From IMG/VR virus record IMGVR_UViG_3300018080_000032, positions 1 through 50,973 of that record: a DNA stretch of 50,973 nucleotides; one strand, written 5' to 3'. The notes below the pieces were generated by a model. That model made no database searches. It saw nothing but the letters and a program-made list of their open reading frames with translations, and had not been told where the DNA came from. Numbering within the stretch: position 1 is the first letter of the stretch; each line of letters starts with the position of its first letter. Shown piece after piece: positions 26,850 to 47,196 of this stretch. This stretch comes from a virus. A program made the translations under genes and the position numbers.

Positions 26850-27186
26850 GGCTTGCCTCCGCGCTCAACTTGCGCTCGCCCCAAGCGAACCAAGCGGCCA
26901 TGATGCGATCGTACTGCTGACTCGCGGCATCGGCCGTGGCTTCGAAGTCCTCGCCTGGCCAGTAACCCCGCTCGCTGAATCGCTCGCCGGCGGTCTCGTG
27001 GGTCGTGCCATCGAACGGATTCCGAAACCAGAATAGCTCGACGTCGCCGCCTGAACTGTCAGCATTCAGTCGCACCGAGGCCAGGTCCTCGAAGTGCAAC
27101 ACACCGACGGCTTCGCCGCTACTCAGTAGGAGCCCGTCAGGCATCGGCCTAATATCGATCACGCTCTCCCAATAGAGCACGGTCAC
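26839..27186 (-). CDS. Hypothetical protein
   Basis: 115 residues, GTG start overlapping the stop of the DUF5131 gene (GTGA). N-terminal beta half ('LYWESVIDIRPMPDGLLL'), C-terminal helix rich in Trp/Arg. No family recognised. Confidence 0.55.
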   Translation of the reverse strand: MTVLYWESVIDIRPMPDGLLLSSGEAVGVLHFEDLASVRLNADSSGGDVELFWFRNPFDGTTHETAGERFSERGYWPGEDFEATADAASQQYDRIMAAWFAWGERKLSAEASHDE

Positions 27187-28613
27187 ACCTCCGGGATCTC
27201 ATCCCATGTTCGCCCGTCGAGCTCGCGGCCGGCCGCCTTCTTGCCATAGCGGCACATCGTTGCCCCGTCGAGCTTCGCCGTAGGATGGTCGCGCCCGTCG
27301 TCTATCGGCTCGCTGAGGGGCGCCCATGCCCCCCAAGACTTGAAGAAGAACGGCACGCCCGCGGCCTGGCACTCGTCGCGCAGCGCCCGGGGCCACGCCG
27401 GATCCATCGGCCTCGCGCCCGGCCCGCTCTCGCCGCCGGCGATCACCCAGTCGAGCGATCCCGGACAGCAAGGCCTGTGCGCTTTGCCATGTGGCAGCCC
27501 AACATGAGGGCCAAACGCAAGGCGGAGGTTGATTGGCCCCAGCAGCGGCTCGCAGCTCACGAACCGCACGGCCGCCGGCGTATCGAGGAGAACCGGGATC
27601 CGCTCGTCGGCGGTCGCCTGATCCTCGACGCTGACGCCGAGCCAAACCCCTGGCAACGGCCACGTAGGCTCGTGCGGCGGCGCCCACTGGCGGCCGGTAG
27701 CGATGTTCCTCGCCTGGGTATCGGAGATGCCGTACCGCCGCCCAAGCTCGGCGCCACTGACGCCGGCTGCGCTCGCTGCGCGCAGCTCTTCAACCTGAGC
27801 CTCCGTCAGCTTCGAGTAGCGACGTCTCGTGCCATGCCGCTTGCTGTCGTCCCAGTTCGATGACTGCGTTCCCCATCGCAGGTTCCACAGGGCGTTGTTG
27901 GTCGGGTTTCCGTCGATGTGGCAGCACTGCTCATCGCCCACACGAGGGCGATCGAAGGCTCCAAGTACGAGGTGGTGGATGAGCGGGCGCCCGGTCTCCT
28001 CACCGCGGTAGAGCATGACTCGCGCGTGTCCTTGACCACCCGACATCGGCGTCATCTCCCGACGCTCTCCCTTGTGGTCGGAAAAGACCCGACCCTTGGT
28101 GGTGACCCAGTAGCCTGGCCAACCCTCAATGGCCTCGAAGCGCTCAGCGGCGAACACCTCCTCGATGCGACCGGCCACCGCAACGTGCTTCATCAGGTCA
28201 ACGCGGGCTGGGAAGCCTGCGTCGCTGAGCAGCGATTGCATCCGCTCCGGCCGCTTCGTGAGCACCTGGAACGTGTGCTGCGGACACGCGGCCATTACTC
28301 CAAACACAACCGCGATCTGTTCGTCAGTCAGCCCCTCGTGGAACAGGTCGCTCATGCTGTCCACGAACACCATCGCCGGCTCGCGCCAGCTGAGGGGCTC
28401 CGCCAGCTTCTCCTCGACCAGCCGGACCTCGCCAGTCCAGCGCGGCCCGGGCGGCGTCATCTCGGCCAGCCCCTCGTAGGGCATGCCCGGCCCCGAGAAG
28501 CGCGCCGCGATCCTCTCGGCGTAGCAGTGCTCGCAGCCAGCCGAGACGCGGGTGCAGCCCCGGATCGGGTTCCAGGTGTGCTCAGTCCATTCGATGTTGC
28601 TCTGCCTACCCAC
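27183..28613 (-). CDS. DUF5131 (phage Gp37/68-like) protein with inserted HNH endonuclease
   Basis: 476 residues from GTG at 28613 (AGGAGG just upstream, 8-base overlap with the previous stop). Outer parts match DUF5131: N-terminal 'IEWTEHTWNPIRGCTRVSAG' with CEHCYAER, 'VFVDSMSDLFHE', and C-terminal 'VWLGVSVEDQATADERIP', 'VIAGGESGPGARPM'. In the middle (about residues 154-310) lies a NUMOD4-HNH homing-type module: 'GWPGYWVTTKGRVFS', 'HHLVLGAF...CHIDGNPTNN', then a helix-turn-helix. The frame stays open throughout. The CxxxCxxC pattern hints at an iron-sulphur/radical-type DUF5131 core. Confidence 0.82.
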   Translation of the reverse strand: MGRQSNIEWTEHTWNPIRGCTRVSAGCEHCYAERIAARFSGPGMPYEGLAEMTPPGPRWTGEVRLVEEKLAEPLSWREPAMVFVDSMSDLFHEGLTDEQIAVVFGVMAACPQHTFQVLTKRPERMQSLLSDAGFPARVDLMKHVAVAGRIEEVFAAERFEAIEGWPGYWVTTKGRVFSDHKGERREMTPMSGGQGHARVMLYRGEETGRPLIHHLVLGAFDRPRVGDEQCCHIDGNPTNNALWNLRWGTQSSNWDDSKRHGTRRRYSKLTEAQVEELRAASAAGVSGAELGRRYGISDTQARNIATGRQWAPPHEPTWPLPGVWLGVSVEDQATADERIPVLLDTPAAVRFVSCEPLLGPINLRLAFGPHVGLPHGKAHRPCCPGSLDWVIAGGESGPGARPMDPAWPRALRDECQAAGVPFFFKSWGAWAPLSEPIDDGRDHPTAKLDGATMCRYGKKAAGRELDGRTWDEIPEV

Positions 28614-28809
28614 GCGCCCTCCTGATCTGCGGGCCCACCGAGCTCGGCTCACCGGACTCCCGCTCAGCCCTTCGCATCGTCTCGATCGCCACCATCACCG
28701 CGCGAGCCAGACCAACCGCCTCGTCGTGCCGGACCTGGCCGCCGTTGTCGTGGATCACGAGTATGCGATCCGCTAGGCGCTCAGCTTCGGCAAGGTGGTG
28801 GCTACTCAT
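28606..28809 (-). CDS. Small hypothetical protein
   Basis: 67 residues from ATG at 28809, overlapping the stop of the ASCH-like gene by 8 bases (ATGAGTAG). Helical, contains 'ERLADRILVIHDNGGQVRH'. No recognised family. Confidence 0.55.
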   Translation of the reverse strand: MSSHHLAEAERLADRILVIHDNGGQVRHDEAVGLARAVMVAIETMRRAERESGEPSSVGPQIRRARG

Positions 28810-39062: not shown

Positions 39063-39995
39063 CTAGTCAAGAGCTTTCTCCATCGCGCCAGCCGCCAGGG
39101 CTTGCGTCTTGCGGTCGACGTGGCTGTAAATGCTCATCGTGTGAGCCATCGTGGAGTGGCCCAGCGTCTGCTGGATGACTCGCGGATGCACGCCCTGCTC
39201 GACCAACAAGGTGGCGCAGGTGTGGCGCAGGTCGTGGAACCTCCGGTTCTTCAATCCGGCCCCCTTGAGCTGGCGCTGGAACTCCCGCTGGACAGTCGAT
39301 CGATGCAGCGGCCGGCCGAGCCGAGTGGTGAAGACCAGGTCGCTATCGTGCCAGTTCTTGGTGCCAACCTGCAGCCTCCTCCTCGACTGAGCTTCCCACC
39401 TTCGAGCCAGTGCTTCCGCGGCGAGCTCAGGCATCCGGAGCGACCGGACACTATCCTGCGTCTTCAGCGGCACCAGCATGAACTCGTGGTCAATGATTTG
39501 AAGCTGCTGACGAATGTGCAACGTCCGCGTGCTGAAGTCGACGTCCGACCACTTGAGGCCAAGGAGCTCTGCCTGGCGCAATCCCATCGTGATTGCCACG
39601 ACGTAGAGCGCCTCGTACCAGTCGCCGGCGACGTGCTCGAAGAACGTGTGAACCTCCGACGACGACAGCGGCATGCCCTTCTTCGGAACCACCCGCGGCA
39701 GATCCACTGCGTCGGCCGCGTTGGTCATCACGAGGCCCCAGGCGATCGCGCGCCTGAGCGCAATCCTGAGCGTGCTGCGGATCTTGCCGACCGTGCCGGG
39801 CTTCAGGCCCTCGGCGAGCATCTGAGCGATGAATCGCTGCACCTGGTAGGGCGTGAGCTCGTCGATCGGAATCTCCCCGAGAGCAGGCACGATGTGTACT
39901 CTCACGTGTGACTCGTGGATCGACCAGGTCTTCCAGCGGCGGTTCGGTTTCACTGCCACGTCGAGCCACTCGGCCAGGTACTCCTCGAGCGTCAT
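39063..39995 (-). CDS. int: Tyrosine integrase
   Basis: 310 residues, ATG at 39995 overlapping the previous stop (ATGA). N-terminal SAM-like arm ('MTLEEYLAEWLDVAVKPNRR'), catalytic half with Arg in 'MGLRQAELLGLKW', 'HDLRHTCATLL' (His and Arg), 'LGHSTMAHTM' (His) and nucleophile Tyr in 'SIYSHVD'. It integrates and excises the prophage, so the phage is temperate. Confidence 0.95.
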   Translation of the reverse strand: MTLEEYLAEWLDVAVKPNRRWKTWSIHESHVRVHIVPALGEIPIDELTPYQVQRFIAQMLAEGLKPGTVGKIRSTLRIALRRAIAWGLVMTNAADAVDLPRVVPKKGMPLSSSEVHTFFEHVAGDWYEALYVVAITMGLRQAELLGLKWSDVDFSTRTLHIRQQLQIIDHEFMLVPLKTQDSVRSLRMPELAAEALARRWEAQSRRRLQVGTKNWHDSDLVFTTRLGRPLHRSTVQREFQRQLKGAGLKNRRFHDLRHTCATLLVEQGVHPRVIQQTLGHSTMAHTMSIYSHVDRKTQALAAGAMEKALD

Positions 39996-40363
39996 GGCTC
40001 CCACCTTCGGCCCTGGCCGGGAGTCCAGGGCGTTGCAGCCTTGTATTCCCCCCAGGCCTGGGCGACGCACATCCAGTAGACGACCGTGTGGGTCCATTGA
40101 TCGGTTCGCAGGAGCACCATGTAGGGTAGGCGCCCCTGGTCGCGCAGCACCTTCACTCGACCGCGACCGATCATCATGTGCTCGCCCGCCGTCGTGCTCC
40201 CGACGGCTAGCTGAGAGATGTCGATCGACGGCAACAGCCGGGCCTGCAGCGCCGCGTTGACATCGCTCAGCCCCTGATCCAGGAGCTGCTGCTGCAGGAT
40301 CTCGCGGGCTCGGTCTCGGAGTGGGTCCGGCAGCGCGGACCACCTCCACGTTTCTTCCGTCAC
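39992..40363 (-). CDS. Hypothetical protein coupled to integrase
   Basis: 123 residues, helical N-terminus, then beta-rich 'MIGRGRVKVLRDQGRLPYMV'. ATGA overlap with integrase. Might control recombination, but it does not look like a typical excisionase. Confidence 0.6.
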   Translation of the reverse strand: MTEETWRWSALPDPLRDRAREILQQQLLDQGLSDVNAALQARLLPSIDISQLAVGSTTAGEHMMIGRGRVKVLRDQGRLPYMVLLRTDQWTHTVVYWMCVAQAWGEYKAATPWTPGQGRRWEP

Positions 40364-40420
40364 GGCTCCTCCTGTCGGTTACGGGGGCTGCAGTATCCTC
40401 CGCGGATGAGGGGAGCGAAC

Positions 40421-40624
40421 GTGACAGTCTGGTTACAGGCGCATCGCTTTCGGCAGGGGGCCGATTTGTTGCGGCTCTCGAGCGGAGCGATGTATCATGC
40501 GAGGCTGCCGCCGGAGCTGGACGATCCAGCGGCATGGCCTCGGGGTGGTCACTCACCACGGGGCCTTCTCCTTTGGGTTGATGTGAAGACGGATCGAGCC
40601 TGGCGACTCGGAGCTACCTCATAG
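40421..40624 (+). CDS. Uncertain small plus-strand protein
   Basis: 67 residues from GTG at 40421 with a GAGGGGAG site upstream; divergent from the gene before integrase. Ends 'LLLWVDVKTDRAWRLGATS'. No family; the antisense strand has only an unlikely extension of the integrase frame. Confidence 0.4.
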   Translation: MTVWLQAHRFRQGADLLRLSSGAMYHARLPPELDDPAAWPRGGHSPRGLLLWVDVKTDRAWRLGATS

Positions 40625-40895: not shown

Positions 40896-42329
40896 CTACA
40901 CGCCCAGCTTCCCTTGCTCGCCCTCCGTCCTCTTCGCCTTTGGGGCTTTCTTGAATGTCACGTCGACGCCGGCGCGGGGGTAGTCGACCCCGTGCCCCTC
41001 GAGGAGCTCCTCGACCGTGAGTAGTTGAATCCGGTGGTGCTTGCTCCCGAGCGGCGACTCATAGAACCCGGCGCTCGCGGCCTCGGCGCGCATGTGAGAA
41101 GTCGGCTCTTGCATCGAGATCAGGACGCCGATCTGTGCCTTGACGCGGTCGATCGTCCCGACGAGATCGCGGACGTGAGCGGACCCGGTGTGCCCCGCCT
41201 TGACCGAGAAGATGATCTGCTTAGTTGCGCCTCTAGGGTCGTCGTGGAAGTAGAGCCGCCCGTCGATCCCCTTATCGGCCCCCTTCTTCTCTTCGGTGGG
41301 GCGCGCCCCGACAAGACCGAGCGACCACCACTGGAACTGGAAGGGGTCTTGCGCCGCAAGCGCCTCGGCGTCGGAGAGTGCGGTCGGTTCGCCTACAACC
41401 TGGTAGTCAAGCTCGTCACCAAAGGCATCCTGTAGTCGAGTTCGCATCAGCCCAATGGCTAGGTGCGTGATGTCGATGCCGATCCACCTTCGTCCAAGGC
41501 GCTGGGCGACTGCCAGCGTGGTTCCGCAGCCGCAGAAAGGATCGAGTACCAAGTCGCCCTCGTCGCTACTGGCGCTGATGACTCTCTCTAGCAATGCCTC
41601 CGGCTTCTGGGTCGGATAGCCAAGCCTCTCTTTGGATACGCTGCTGATGATGCTTATCTCCCACCAGTCGGGCATGATGGCGCCCTTCGGGTTGAAGTCG
41701 ACTCTCTTGCCGTACTGCATTTGGTACGGGCCCCGTTCGTCCTCTTTGATCCCGGCCATGACGTAAGGGACGTGTTGCGGAGCAAAGTCGAACTCCTGGG
41801 TCTTGCTGTAGAACAGCAGCACGTCGTGTTTGCGGCCGAACCTGCGTTTGGTAGCTCCACCAGAGCGGTAGCACCAGACGATCTCATTCTGGAACTGTCG
41901 AGCACCGAACGTACTGTCCATCAGGACTTTCAGGTAGTGACTCGCCGTCGGGTCACAGTGGAGGTAGACGCTCCCGGTGGGCTTCAGGACGCGCCGCAGC
42001 TCGATCAGGCGCGGCGCCATCATCGCGAGGTAGGCGAGCATGTCGTTGTCGCCCAGTAGGATTCGGAAGGCGCGCATCGCCTCCGCAACCTGGCCGCCGG
42101 ACTCGACTACCTCGAAGTAAGACTCGGCTGCGGCTTCATCCCAGTGCCAGAAGTCGTCGAACGCCTCGATCTGCGCGGCGGCGTCGGTGCCGTCCTTCTC
42201 TTTGAACAAGACGTTGTAGGTAGCCTGCGAGTTGAACGGCGGGTCGAGGTAGATTAGGTCGACCGACTCGTCGTCGATGTACCGCTTCAGGATGTCGAGG
42301 TTGTCGCCGTAATAGAGGGTGTTGGGCAT
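40896..42329 (-). CDS. DNA adenine/cytosine-N4 methyltransferase fused to Mrr-like domain
   Basis: 477 residues from ATG at 42329 (GAGGAGG upstream). Methyltransferase of the beta order: catalytic 'LIYLDPPFNSQ' (about 27) before the SAM motif 'VLDPFCGCGTTLAVAQ' (about 265). C-terminal about 130 residues: 'ADKGIDGRLYF' (Asp) and 'IIFSVKAGHT' (Val-Lys) match the Mrr-type PD-(D/E)XK domain. It may protect phage DNA and, if the nuclease is active, cut unmodified DNA. Confidence 0.85.
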   Translation of the reverse strand: MPNTLYYGDNLDILKRYIDDESVDLIYLDPPFNSQATYNVLFKEKDGTDAAAQIEAFDDFWHWDEAAAESYFEVVESGGQVAEAMRAFRILLGDNDMLAYLAMMAPRLIELRRVLKPTGSVYLHCDPTASHYLKVLMDSTFGARQFQNEIVWCYRSGGATKRRFGRKHDVLLFYSKTQEFDFAPQHVPYVMAGIKEDERGPYQMQYGKRVDFNPKGAIMPDWWEISIISSVSKERLGYPTQKPEALLERVISASSDEGDLVLDPFCGCGTTLAVAQRLGRRWIGIDITHLAIGLMRTRLQDAFGDELDYQVVGEPTALSDAEALAAQDPFQFQWWSLGLVGARPTEEKKGADKGIDGRLYFHDDPRGATKQIIFSVKAGHTGSAHVRDLVGTIDRVKAQIGVLISMQEPTSHMRAEAASAGFYESPLGSKHHRIQLLTVEELLEGHGVDYPRAGVDVTFKKAPKAKRTEGEQGKLGV

Positions 42330-42346
42330 CGGAGCCTCCTCGCCGC

Positions 42347-42374
42347 AGTGTAGCACGGGCAACGCCCTGGGCAA
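42347..42374 (-). promoter_or_regulatory. Putative methyltransferase promoter
   Basis: Minus strand TTGCCC, 16 bases, TACACT, with TGC before the -10 (extended -10). It lies 18 bases upstream of the methyltransferase ATG, in the 141-bp gap shared with the divergent secreted gene. Confidence 0.5.
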
Positions 42375-42470
42375 GGCAATCTGGCCGTATCCCCGTGAGA
42401 CCGCTGGCGTCAATCCTACTGTGACGCCGCGCCCCTGCCCATGGGGCTTGAAGTACCGGAGGAGTGATTC

Positions 42471-43040
42471 ATGCGTGCCCCACGCCTACTTGTCCTGTCG
42501 AGCATCCTTGTGGCGCTGGTCTGCGCCGTCGGATGGCCCGTGCTGACCGCTCACGCTGTGGTCGTCGGTGGCAGCGCTGGCGTTGCGGTTGGCGACGAGA
42601 CCGCTGTCGGCGTCGGTGTAGCCGGCAGGGCAACGGTCGGGGTCGGCGGCGGAGTCGAGGTCGCCTGGAGCGGGTGATCACCGACGGTGACGCCGATGCT
42701 ACCTCCCACGTCGACGCCTATGCAGCCGGCGACTCCAACAGTAACAGCCATTCCACCGCCGACCATGTCACCAGTCCCGACCCCGGTTCCGACTGCGACC
42801 CTGATCCCCGGATTCACACCGAAGGTCGACCCTTCGATATCCGGAAAGGTGCCGTCAGCGGCGGTCAGCTATGCGCTCGCCAATCCGGCCAAGGTCCGGG
42901 GATGGGGGCTGCTACTGAACCCTGCAGTCCCGTTCCATCCGTTGTACAATCCCCACAGAACATGCCTGACGCTGACGAACCCCGGGGTGCCCTACGCACC
43001 GGTCTTCAACGACCTGGTGTTCAAGGCGGGGTGTCCGTAG
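42471..43040 (+). pseudogene. Secreted Thr/Pro-rich protein gene, currently switched off by an inverted segment
   Basis: Signal peptide at residues 1-29 ('LLVLSSILVALVCAVGWPVL', then TAHA) with a GGAGGAG ribosome site. As given, the frame becomes a Gly/Val-rich run and stops at TGA 42675-42677; the same frame resumes at 42687 with a Thr/Pro linker and a C-terminal domain ('AAVSYALANPAKVRGWG', ending FKAGCP). The opposite strand of 42563-42686 encodes the missing Thr/Pro linker. Flipping it gives one open 189-residue frame. C-terminal domain not recognised. Confidence 0.85.
42563..42686. repeat. Invertible or inverted 124-bp segment with 8-bp inverted repeats
   Basis: CGTCGGTG (42563-42570) and CACCGACG (42679-42686) bound the segment. 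Inverting exactly between them keeps frame on both sides and turns the Gly/Val run and stop into 'TSTPPPTPTVALPATPTPTA...', continuous with the downstream linker. A further CGTCGGTG at 42611-42618 lies inside. Eight base pairs is too short to cause a misassembly, so the inversion is probably biological. Confidence 0.8.
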
Positions 43041-44742: not shown

Positions 44743-45063
44743 CTAGCTCAGTCGCCTCAGCACTCCGAAGTCGTAGCCGATCTCCTCGAGCTGCTCCACG
44801 GTCAGGACCGCACTCTCCGGCGGTCTGCCGCGCAGCTTGAACACGATCGCGACATCGCCGACGCCCTGCTGGTACTGAATGCGATTGACGGGCACATCGA
44901 TGTCCAGCAGGCGGCTCAGGATGGCCGCTGTGCTCTCGTGGCCGATGGCGCTCTGCCAGCCGGGCGCATCGGCCAGAAGTCGGCGTGCGCTTTCGATCGT
45001 CGCGGGTGAGTACTGATACTGCCCGAAGGAAGTCAGGATCGACGTGTTGAGTAGAGTGATCAT
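44743..45063 (-). CDS. DUF1874 protein, AcrIII-1-like cA4 ring nuclease
   Basis: 106 residues. 'LLNTSILTSFGQYQY' at the start, 'SAIGHESTAAILSRLLDIDV' (key His 42) followed by PVNRI, and the closing 'LTVEQLEEIGYDFGVL' match the DUF1874/STIV B116 family. Members degrade cyclic tetra-adenylate and act as anti-CRISPR AcrIII-1 against type III systems. Family length (about 110) agrees. Coupled to the amidase gene by ATGA, so expressed late. Anti-CRISPR activity is inferred from the family. Confidence 0.85.
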   Translation of the reverse strand: MITLLNTSILTSFGQYQYSPATIESARRLLADAPGWQSAIGHESTAAILSRLLDIDVPVNRIQYQQGVGDVAIVFKLRGRPPESAVLTVEQLEEIGYDFGVLRRLS

Positions 45064-45644
45064 GGATACCTCACTGGTCTGTTTCTCCCGTAGTCGGGCG
45101 CTGCTCCATACGCAGCCCCTCGCATCGCGACCAAGTGCGGCATGACCTGGTCGCCCGGACAGCTCGTCTGAGACAGCTCCCGGTGGCCGCGCCAGACGTT
45201 GTAGCCGAGCACGTCATCGCAGGTGCAGAGCCACACGTAGAGGGCCTGCAACATTTCGGGCGTCGGGTCCGTCTGGGTGTAGTGGCCGCACAACGCCACG
45301 TGGACGCTTGTCGGATTCCACCTCGGCCCCGCCCCCCAGCTCATCTTCGACGGCGGGATCATCAGCTGCAGCCGCCCGTCGGGCGTGATACAAGCGTGGT
45401 AGCCGCCGGTTGTCGTGGCGTAGGGCCAGCGACTCTTGACGAAGAAGCGCCACAGGCAGTGCGCGTCGCACTTCTGCGAACCGGCCGTGTGGTGCACGAC
45501 ATATCGTGCGATGGCCGTCGATCCACCGGGCCGCGCGATGTGGTTGCCGCCGTAGAGCCGGATGAGCTCGTCGCCCAGGTAGGCGAATGAGGAGCCCAGC
45601 CGCTCGCGGAGCTTCCCGACGAAGACCGTATCTCTGTACATCAT
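45060..45644 (-). CDS. N-acetylmuramoyl-L-alanine amidase (endolysin)
   Basis: 194 residues, ATG at 45644 overlapping the previous stop. Amidase_2/PGRP fold: 'IARYVVHHTAG' (zinc His), 'TTTGGYHACITPDGRL', 'TSVHVALCGHY', and 'GHRELSQTSCPGD' (zinc His and Cys). Cleaves the bond between muramic acid and L-Ala. No signal peptide, so it needs a holin. Confidence 0.9.
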   Translation of the reverse strand: MMYRDTVFVGKLRERLGSSFAYLGDELIRLYGGNHIARPGGSTAIARYVVHHTAGSQKCDAHCLWRFFVKSRWPYATTTGGYHACITPDGRLQLMIPPSKMSWGAGPRWNPTSVHVALCGHYTQTDPTPEMLQALYVWLCTCDDVLGYNVWRGHRELSQTSCPGDQVMPHLVAMRGAAYGAAPDYGRNRPVRYP

Positions 45645-46927
45645 GGTTGAGCCTCCACTGCCGAGAACTCCTGCACCCTGACGGCCACATGCCAGGGCGA
45701 GCGGATCCACACGCCTGTGTGCAGCGCGCCAATGCCCGGATTGGCTGCCCGCAGGTCCTCGATGTCGTCGCGCGTCGGCTCGCAATCGAGTAACCGTCGC
45801 GCAATCGACCACCAGCCGTCACGCCGGCGGACCTCCGTCATTGCGAAGACCTGGCGCGTCGGCGTTGGATTCGGTTCTGGTTCCGGTTCCGGCTCAGGTT
45901 CCGGATCCGGATCCGGATCCACGCGCGGCACCTCACACTTCGTGGTGAAGTCGGCCATGTTCTCGAGTCGCCTCCGCAGGCCTTCGTTCTCCCAGATCAC
46001 GTTCTGGCCGTGCTCGGGCCCGCTGTTCCAGATGAACCAGGTTACCCCGAGCACGCGTCCCGATTGCGCCGCAGCCATGAGGAGCCCCGTCATCGCCGTC
46101 TCCGTCGCGTCGGTCTTGGCGTGGTGGGAGTGCGTCCAAGTGCCGGCCTCGGTGATGAGCAGCGGCTTGTCCGGGAACTGCGCGAGCATCCCGCCGGGAT
46201 CCGAGTCGTTCTTGAAGCCGCGGGGCCGGAAGTCCCGCAGCATGTACCAGTATTCGTCATCGCCGCCCGGCGCCGTCCGCTGGCCGTCCGCTCCCCAGTT
46301 GAGGTAGCAGTAGGGGTGCGAGGCCATGATGTCGCAGCGGTTGATCGCGGCGCGGATCTCCGGCACCTGGTACTCGCCGTCCGGCGGGTACCCTGGCGGC
46401 TCGTGGCCGAAGGCGAGCGCCGACCAGACCCGCAGGCACTTGTGGCCGGGAGCTGCACCGTCGAAGGCTTCCCAGAACAGGCTGTTCCACAGCCCGATGG
46501 CCTGGTAGTCGGCGACGGAATGCGCCACGTGCGGCTCGATGTTTTGCTCGTTCGCCGGCGAGATCGCGACGTAGGGATCGTCGAGTAGAGACGCCGTGCG
46601 GACGTGCCCGTCGGTCCAGTTGTCGAGCATCCTGACCGCGTGCTCTGCCCATCCGGCCGGGTCTAGTTCGCGCCAGTTGGGGTGATAGAGCCGAACGTGG
46701 ATCAGGCGTCGCGGCGCCGGGTCGATCTCCTGCTCGTCGAAGCCGTAGCGGAGCTTGCCGTACCAGAAGCGGTTCTCGACGTCGCCCCATTGGTCTGCAA
46801 CTTCGTCCCTTGCGAACATCAGATGGTGGAGGATCGTGACGGCGCCCTCTGGCCTCGCGACGCGGATCGCCTGTTCAACGTCCCAGTGGCGCGAGTTTGA
46901 GATGTGGATCCCGTTGACGACTCTCAT
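45641..46927 (-). CDS. Glycoside hydrolase (clan GH-A-like) with LysM-type C-terminus
   Basis: 428 residues from ATG at 46927 (ATGA overlap). TIM-barrel glycosidase pattern with acid/base 'ISPANEQN' and nucleophile 'LLITEAGTWTHSHH'. A Asp/Glu/Pro linker (about 338-356) leads to a LysM-like domain ('MTEVRRRDGWWSIARRLLDC', 'IEDLRAANPGIG'). Probably degrades cell-wall glycan together with the amidase. Confidence 0.75.
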   Translation of the reverse strand: MRVVNGIHISNSRHWDVEQAIRVARPEGAVTILHHLMFARDEVADQWGDVENRFWYGKLRYGFDEQEIDPAPRRLIHVRLYHPNWRELDPAGWAEHAVRMLDNWTDGHVRTASLLDDPYVAISPANEQNIEPHVAHSVADYQAIGLWNSLFWEAFDGAAPGHKCLRVWSALAFGHEPPGYPPDGEYQVPEIRAAINRCDIMASHPYCYLNWGADGQRTAPGGDDEYWYMLRDFRPRGFKNDSDPGGMLAQFPDKPLLITEAGTWTHSHHAKTDATETAMTGLLMAAAQSGRVLGVTWFIWNSGPEHGQNVIWENEGLRRRLENMADFTTKCEVPRVDPDPDPEPEPEPEPEPNPTPTRQVFAMTEVRRRDGWWSIARRLLDCEPTRDDIEDLRAANPGIGALHTGVWIRSPWHVAVRVQEFSAVEAQP

Positions 46928-47196
46928 GCGGCCCCCTCGTATTTGCGCTCGTAGTCCGGACATTCCCAGACCGGAAGCACTAGTCCCTGTGCCAGACAGA
47001 CGGCGTAGACCAGGTTCGCGATCGGGCAGTTGCCCTCGGGCATTCCAGGGTTGAACTTCGAGCATGTACCGCAAAGGCAGTGCTCCCGGTGCCTACCCTT
47101 CAGGCCGCGCCGCACCGCCACGTTGTTGCCGTGGTGCTCATAGCGAACGAAGTCGCTATCGATGTAGGACAAGGTAGGGTCGGTCGCGGTGCCCAT
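46924..47196 (-). CDS. Cys-rich conserved phage protein
   Basis: 90 residues with HCLCGTCSKF, NCPIANLVYAVC and WECPDYE: at least six Cys that may bind zinc or an iron-sulphur cluster. Found in other environmental phages by my recollection; function unknown. Confidence 0.62.
   Translation of the reverse strand: MGTATDPTLSYIDSDFVRYEHHGNNVAVRRGLKGRHREHCLCGTCSKFNPGMPEGNCPIANLVYAVCLAQGLVLPVWECPDYERKYEGAA

Follow-up and report, generated by a model that had tools for sequence, protein, structure and literature searches.

The gene at 42471-43040 of the phage DNA analysed here, a window of 50,973 bp from an IMG/VR virus record, is best explained as an accessory gene for a host-like surface protein that was silenced by a one-off or rare, recent and illegitimate inversion of a piece of its linker, a reading to which we assign a probability of about 0.6. 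The protein would be secreted and built like those of the likely host, an Anaerolineae bacterium, with a signal peptide, a Thr/Pro linker and a disulfide-bearing C-terminal domain of some 71 aa, probably concerned with surface sorting or anchoring. A 124-bp piece of the linker would have been inverted between two 8-bp inverted repeats, and translation would now read its antisense, a Gly/Val run, and stop at the TGA at 42675; the orientation as sequenced would be the OFF state, and a derived one.

If the inversion is real, this would be a well-delimited case in which an inversion between short repeats has silenced a coding gene of a phage. Such inversions are easy to spot in Thr/Pro linkers, which read as an open Gly/Val run on the antisense strand. 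Of more general value is the C-terminal domain.

The reading frame and its computed inversion

From the ATG at 42471 the frame passes through a signal peptide and a Gly/Val run to the TGA (Table 1), a layout that the earlier note had described and whose coordinates all agreed when re-checked. Past this codon the unchanged frame continues into a Thr/Pro linker and then into the C-terminal domain, which is closed by the stop codon at 43038-43040, the single TGA being the sole break between the start half and the downstream Thr/Pro half, both in the same register.

Table 1. Features of the gene and the nearby integrase, in window coordinates
Feature	Position	Strand	Basis or remark
Tyrosine integrase	39063..40559	-	only recombinase among the ORFs scanned
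Shine-Dalgarno GGAGGAG	42458..42464	+	6 nt 5' of ATG 42471; sequence
Signal peptide MRAPRLLVLSSILVALVCAVGWPVLTAHA	42471..42557	+	translation; signal-peptide form judged by eye
Left inverted-repeat arm CGTCGGTG	42563..42570	+	inverted-repeat listing
Segment probably lying inverted; reverse strand reads as first half of Thr/Pro linker	42563..42686	-	
TGA stop ending the frame in the given orientation	42675..42677	+	
Right inverted-repeat arm CACCGACG	42679..42686	+	inverted-repeat listing
Thr/Pro linker, same frame as ATG 42471	42678..42824	+	
71-aa C-terminal domain of the Anaerolineae family, stop codon included	42825..43040	+	

When 42563-42686 is inverted by computation, the frame is open over 189 codons and the Thr/Pro linker is unbroken, the sequence at the ON junction becoming GTCGTCGGTGATCACCCG; the restored 189-residue frame had been claimed beforehand, and its repeat arms, coordinates and codon count are confirmed. 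The open frame alone is weak evidence, because 8,691 arbitrary pairs of endpoints open it too. The Gly/Val forward reading and the Thr/Pro reverse reading, which had been given as two observations, both exist, but they are not independent: read on the other strand with a shift of one base, GTN and GGN codons become ACN and CCN codons, and the two runs are a single fact.

Perfect inverted repeats of 8 bp are present at both ends of the segment, a length at chance level here, where 6-8 inverted-repeat pairs of at least 8 bp occur within the same 640 bp in either orientation, and repeat length was therefore rejected as evidence for the inversion. What exceeds chance is the position of the arms, at the compositional boundary. 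Among all the inversions whose repeats measure 6 bp or more, that of 42563-42686 gives the best Thr/Pro linker (76.5 bits, against 89 for the unconstrained optimum and -9 for the sequence as given), and when codons were shuffled within both runs, an in-frame repeat of 8 bp or longer lay equally near the compositional optimum in 1.6% of cases, at a threshold chosen after the observed value was known. Codon usage was rejected as a test of orientation, both readings fitting equally (z -0.44 and -0.19), with no power to separate them. Thus, support for the inversion from the local sequence by itself can be called moderate only, because many inversions open the frame, 8-bp repeats are common, and codon usage suits either reading.

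An undescribed domain in Anaerolineae and the orientation of its linkers

As no phage relative carrying the gene was found, the C-terminal domain itself was searched for in genome contigs, by means of a degenerate DNA pattern for NPGxPYxPx[FY]N. The pattern matched two genomes, Anaerolineae bacterium OFTM155 and bacterium UCB3, both assigned by the tool to one order, and the proteins matched carry the same domain at their end, after Thr/Pro linkers. The domain is about 71 aa long; three Anaerolineae (Chloroflexota) genomes, all of that one order, contain 15-18 copies each (loci L260, L271 and L274-L321), and no further genome with it appeared in samples of 400 from the phylum and 396 from the class. 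Pfam, NCBIfam, PHROGs, the PDB and plasmids gave no match to it, and it is an undescribed domain. A structure prediction from three sequences reached a pLDDT of 49 and was set aside, and a second pattern for the domain, run on viral contigs, was rejected, as it gave chance matches only.

Distinct host copies number 43. Under a model derived from host sequences alone, the window copy reaches 97.2 bits, near the host median (jackknife range of the host copies, 57-116), and it retains the strongly conserved positions except for the first cysteine, which three host copies lack too; it is undamaged. Internal stops are absent from every listed copy of the domain. Cysteines at two positions of the alignment, residues 32 and 69 of the window copy, occur jointly in 21 sequences and never singly, behaving as would be expected of a disulfide, and the window copy falls into a rarer two-cysteine class, which has three host members.

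In nearly all host cases the domain is C-terminal, locus L290 being an exception, and it often follows a Thr/Pro linker; among its passengers are Kelch propellers, a beta-lactamase-like hydrolase, VWA and, as a weak match, an M6 peptidase. It would probably sort or anchor host proteins at the cell surface. Like the C-terminal sorting domains of type IX secretion (CTD) and of PEP-CTERM proteins, it recurs in each genome as numerous paralogous copies that form the C-termini of secreted proteins of diverse kinds; unlike them, it has no Pfam or NCBIfam match, carries disulfide-type cysteines and comes from three Anaerolineae genomes only. Such a highly paralogous tail, shared between a phage and the secreted proteins of a Chloroflexota lineage, suggests a protein-sorting route in that lineage, and its presence in both the phage and the Anaerolineae genomes points to the host of the phage.

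The linkers ahead of the domain bear on orientation. In the 60 residues before it, G+V does not exceed 0.28 in any of the 36 scorable host ORFs (36/36), while T+P is at least 0.30 in 21 of the 36; a 37th row, L282, was excluded and read by eye, a spurious stretch having been picked there. None of the 36 has a sense Gly/Val run ahead of the domain. Across 62 host loci, 17 of 20 Gly/Val runs lie antisense to a Thr/Pro linker in a longer ORF, a count biased towards linkers, as the loci were picked for the domain. A short host protein in L287 consists of a signal peptide, a Thr/Pro linker and the domain, that is, the ON architecture, and the Gly/Val DNA of the window at 42602-42657, of low complexity, matches the antisense strand of a host gene for a signal peptide and Thr/Pro linker at 80%. 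The linker of the phage gene very probably lies inverted, in an OFF state, because no host copy is preceded by a Gly/Val run and 17 of 20 such runs are antisense. Of the earlier proposal of an on/off switch made by a 124-bp inversion, the part in which the inverted segment disrupts a secreted protein is thus well supported by the domain family and its Thr/Pro linkers.

One event, a switch or no inversion

The inversion would have occurred once or rarely, most likely as an illegitimate event, for example by replication template switching between short repeats, and it would be recent, because the domain and the remaining reading frame show no damage; an intact hidden frame suggests an inversion that is either recent or reverting. 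Template switching between short inverted repeats can invert the spacer in coding DNA (PMC8604942), and the locus would share with those cases a clean inversion in coding DNA between short, perfect and unchanged repeats, if the open orientation is, as we infer, the ancestral one. In the yeast cases the arms are longer than 9 bp and the spacers very short, of a few bases, whereas here arms of 8 bp enclose 108 bp, outside that range; and the effect there is one or two substitutions, here a stop (PMC8604942).

The remainder of the switch proposal, that a recombinase reversibly flips the segment and so turns a surface protein on and off in lysogens, we regard as unlikely, and its fuller version, in which a temperate phage of Anaerolineae would carry a copy of a host surface-sorting domain as a lysogenic-conversion protein, set on or off by inversion of the linker between 8-bp repeats, as slightly more so. 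The clean ON frame, the undamaged domain and the phage's own tyrosine integrase (39063-40559), 2 kb from the segment, favour such a switch; against it, the repeats are of ordinary, chance-level length, outside the core the two sites are not clearly similar, the ORFs scanned (small ORFs covered in part) yielded no invertase, and the second orientation was not seen in any of the collections searched. Similarity of the inversion sites to the flanks of the integrase does not stand out. The tail-fibre segments of Mu (Gin) and P1 (Cin) are likewise phage-borne inversions that change a surface-related protein, but there a serine invertase gene lies beside the segment and the sites are of about 26 bp, while here no serine recombinase gene was found beside the segment and the sites share 8 bp only. 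The further claim, that known invertases need a longer site, was unsound, and repeat length does not bar site-specific recombination, because at fimS of Escherichia coli, a promoter-carrying segment of 314 bp, a tyrosine recombinase acts within inverted repeats of 9 bp (PMC9993118). Short inverted repeats bound the segment here too; in contrast to fimS, it is coding, and a dedicated recombinase is known for fimS only. The intragenic invertons known in bacteria (Chanin et al., 2024, Nature, cited in PMC11868660) are also segments within genes, bounded by inverted repeats, whose orientation alters the protein; set against these, the present locus is phage-borne, seen in one orientation, and has been assigned no cognate recombinase.

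A little less probable again than either form of the switch is an artefact, the segment having been turned round in the contig by misassembly or by a chimera that arose in the library or during amplification. The window comes from a single IMG/VR record, of which no second copy was found, and the joining of short inverted repeats is a known effect of whole-genome amplification; this would nevertheless call for two clean junctions, and a repeat of 8 bp is too short to mislead an assembler that works with k-mers of at least 21. The least probable reading is that nothing was inverted, the Gly/Val run being native and the TGA a true stop, a read-through stop, a point mutation or an error, in which case the uninterrupted protein would consist of a signal peptide, Gly/Val, Thr/Pro and the domain. 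The position of both halves in one frame with one stop between them, and the normal codon usage of the Gly/Val run, agree with this; but in no host relative does a sense Gly/Val run precede the domain, and such runs in the host loci are nearly all the antisense of Thr/Pro linkers, so that an inverted linker is far likelier than a native Gly/Val run cut short by a point stop.

The phage genome and its relatives

The genes of the window include a Mu-type portal, a terminase, a tape measure, RecE, an integrase and a methylase, and the neighbours of the segment are the methylase, the tyrosine integrase and orphan ORFs. No genus-level relative emerged from six protein scans of viral contigs; the C-terminal frame, the integrase and the portal, used as single sequences, retrieved no relatives, and each of the alignments of methylase, RecE and terminase gave 80 loci, among which there was neither a carrier of the gene nor a genus-level relative. 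The gene was not found in any of the fetched records that were searched. Among cultured phages, tblastn with the C-terminal frame and the next ORF gave no match, and other genes of the window gave distant matches only; no phage terminase was found in the seven genomes of the host order. In the collections searched, the locus is known from one sequence, with neither orientation elsewhere.

Some other genes of the window merit description. The methylase (40896-42413, minus strand) is a DNA methylase fused to an Mrr-like or inactive restriction endonuclease domain, with homologues in Marinitoga, Streptomyces and Mycobacterium phages. A DUF5131 protein (27183-28652, minus strand) is interrupted in frame by a NUMOD4/HNH homing endonuclease of about 155 residues, where no intein motif was seen by eye and no Rfam intron matched; Rfam gave neither a group I intron nor any other RNA besides the tRNA. 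Finally, a protein at 45641-47074 (minus strand), with no PHROG match, has an acidic linker of Asp/Pro and Glu/Pro, and its gene is adjoined by an endolysin-like gene at 45060-45812.
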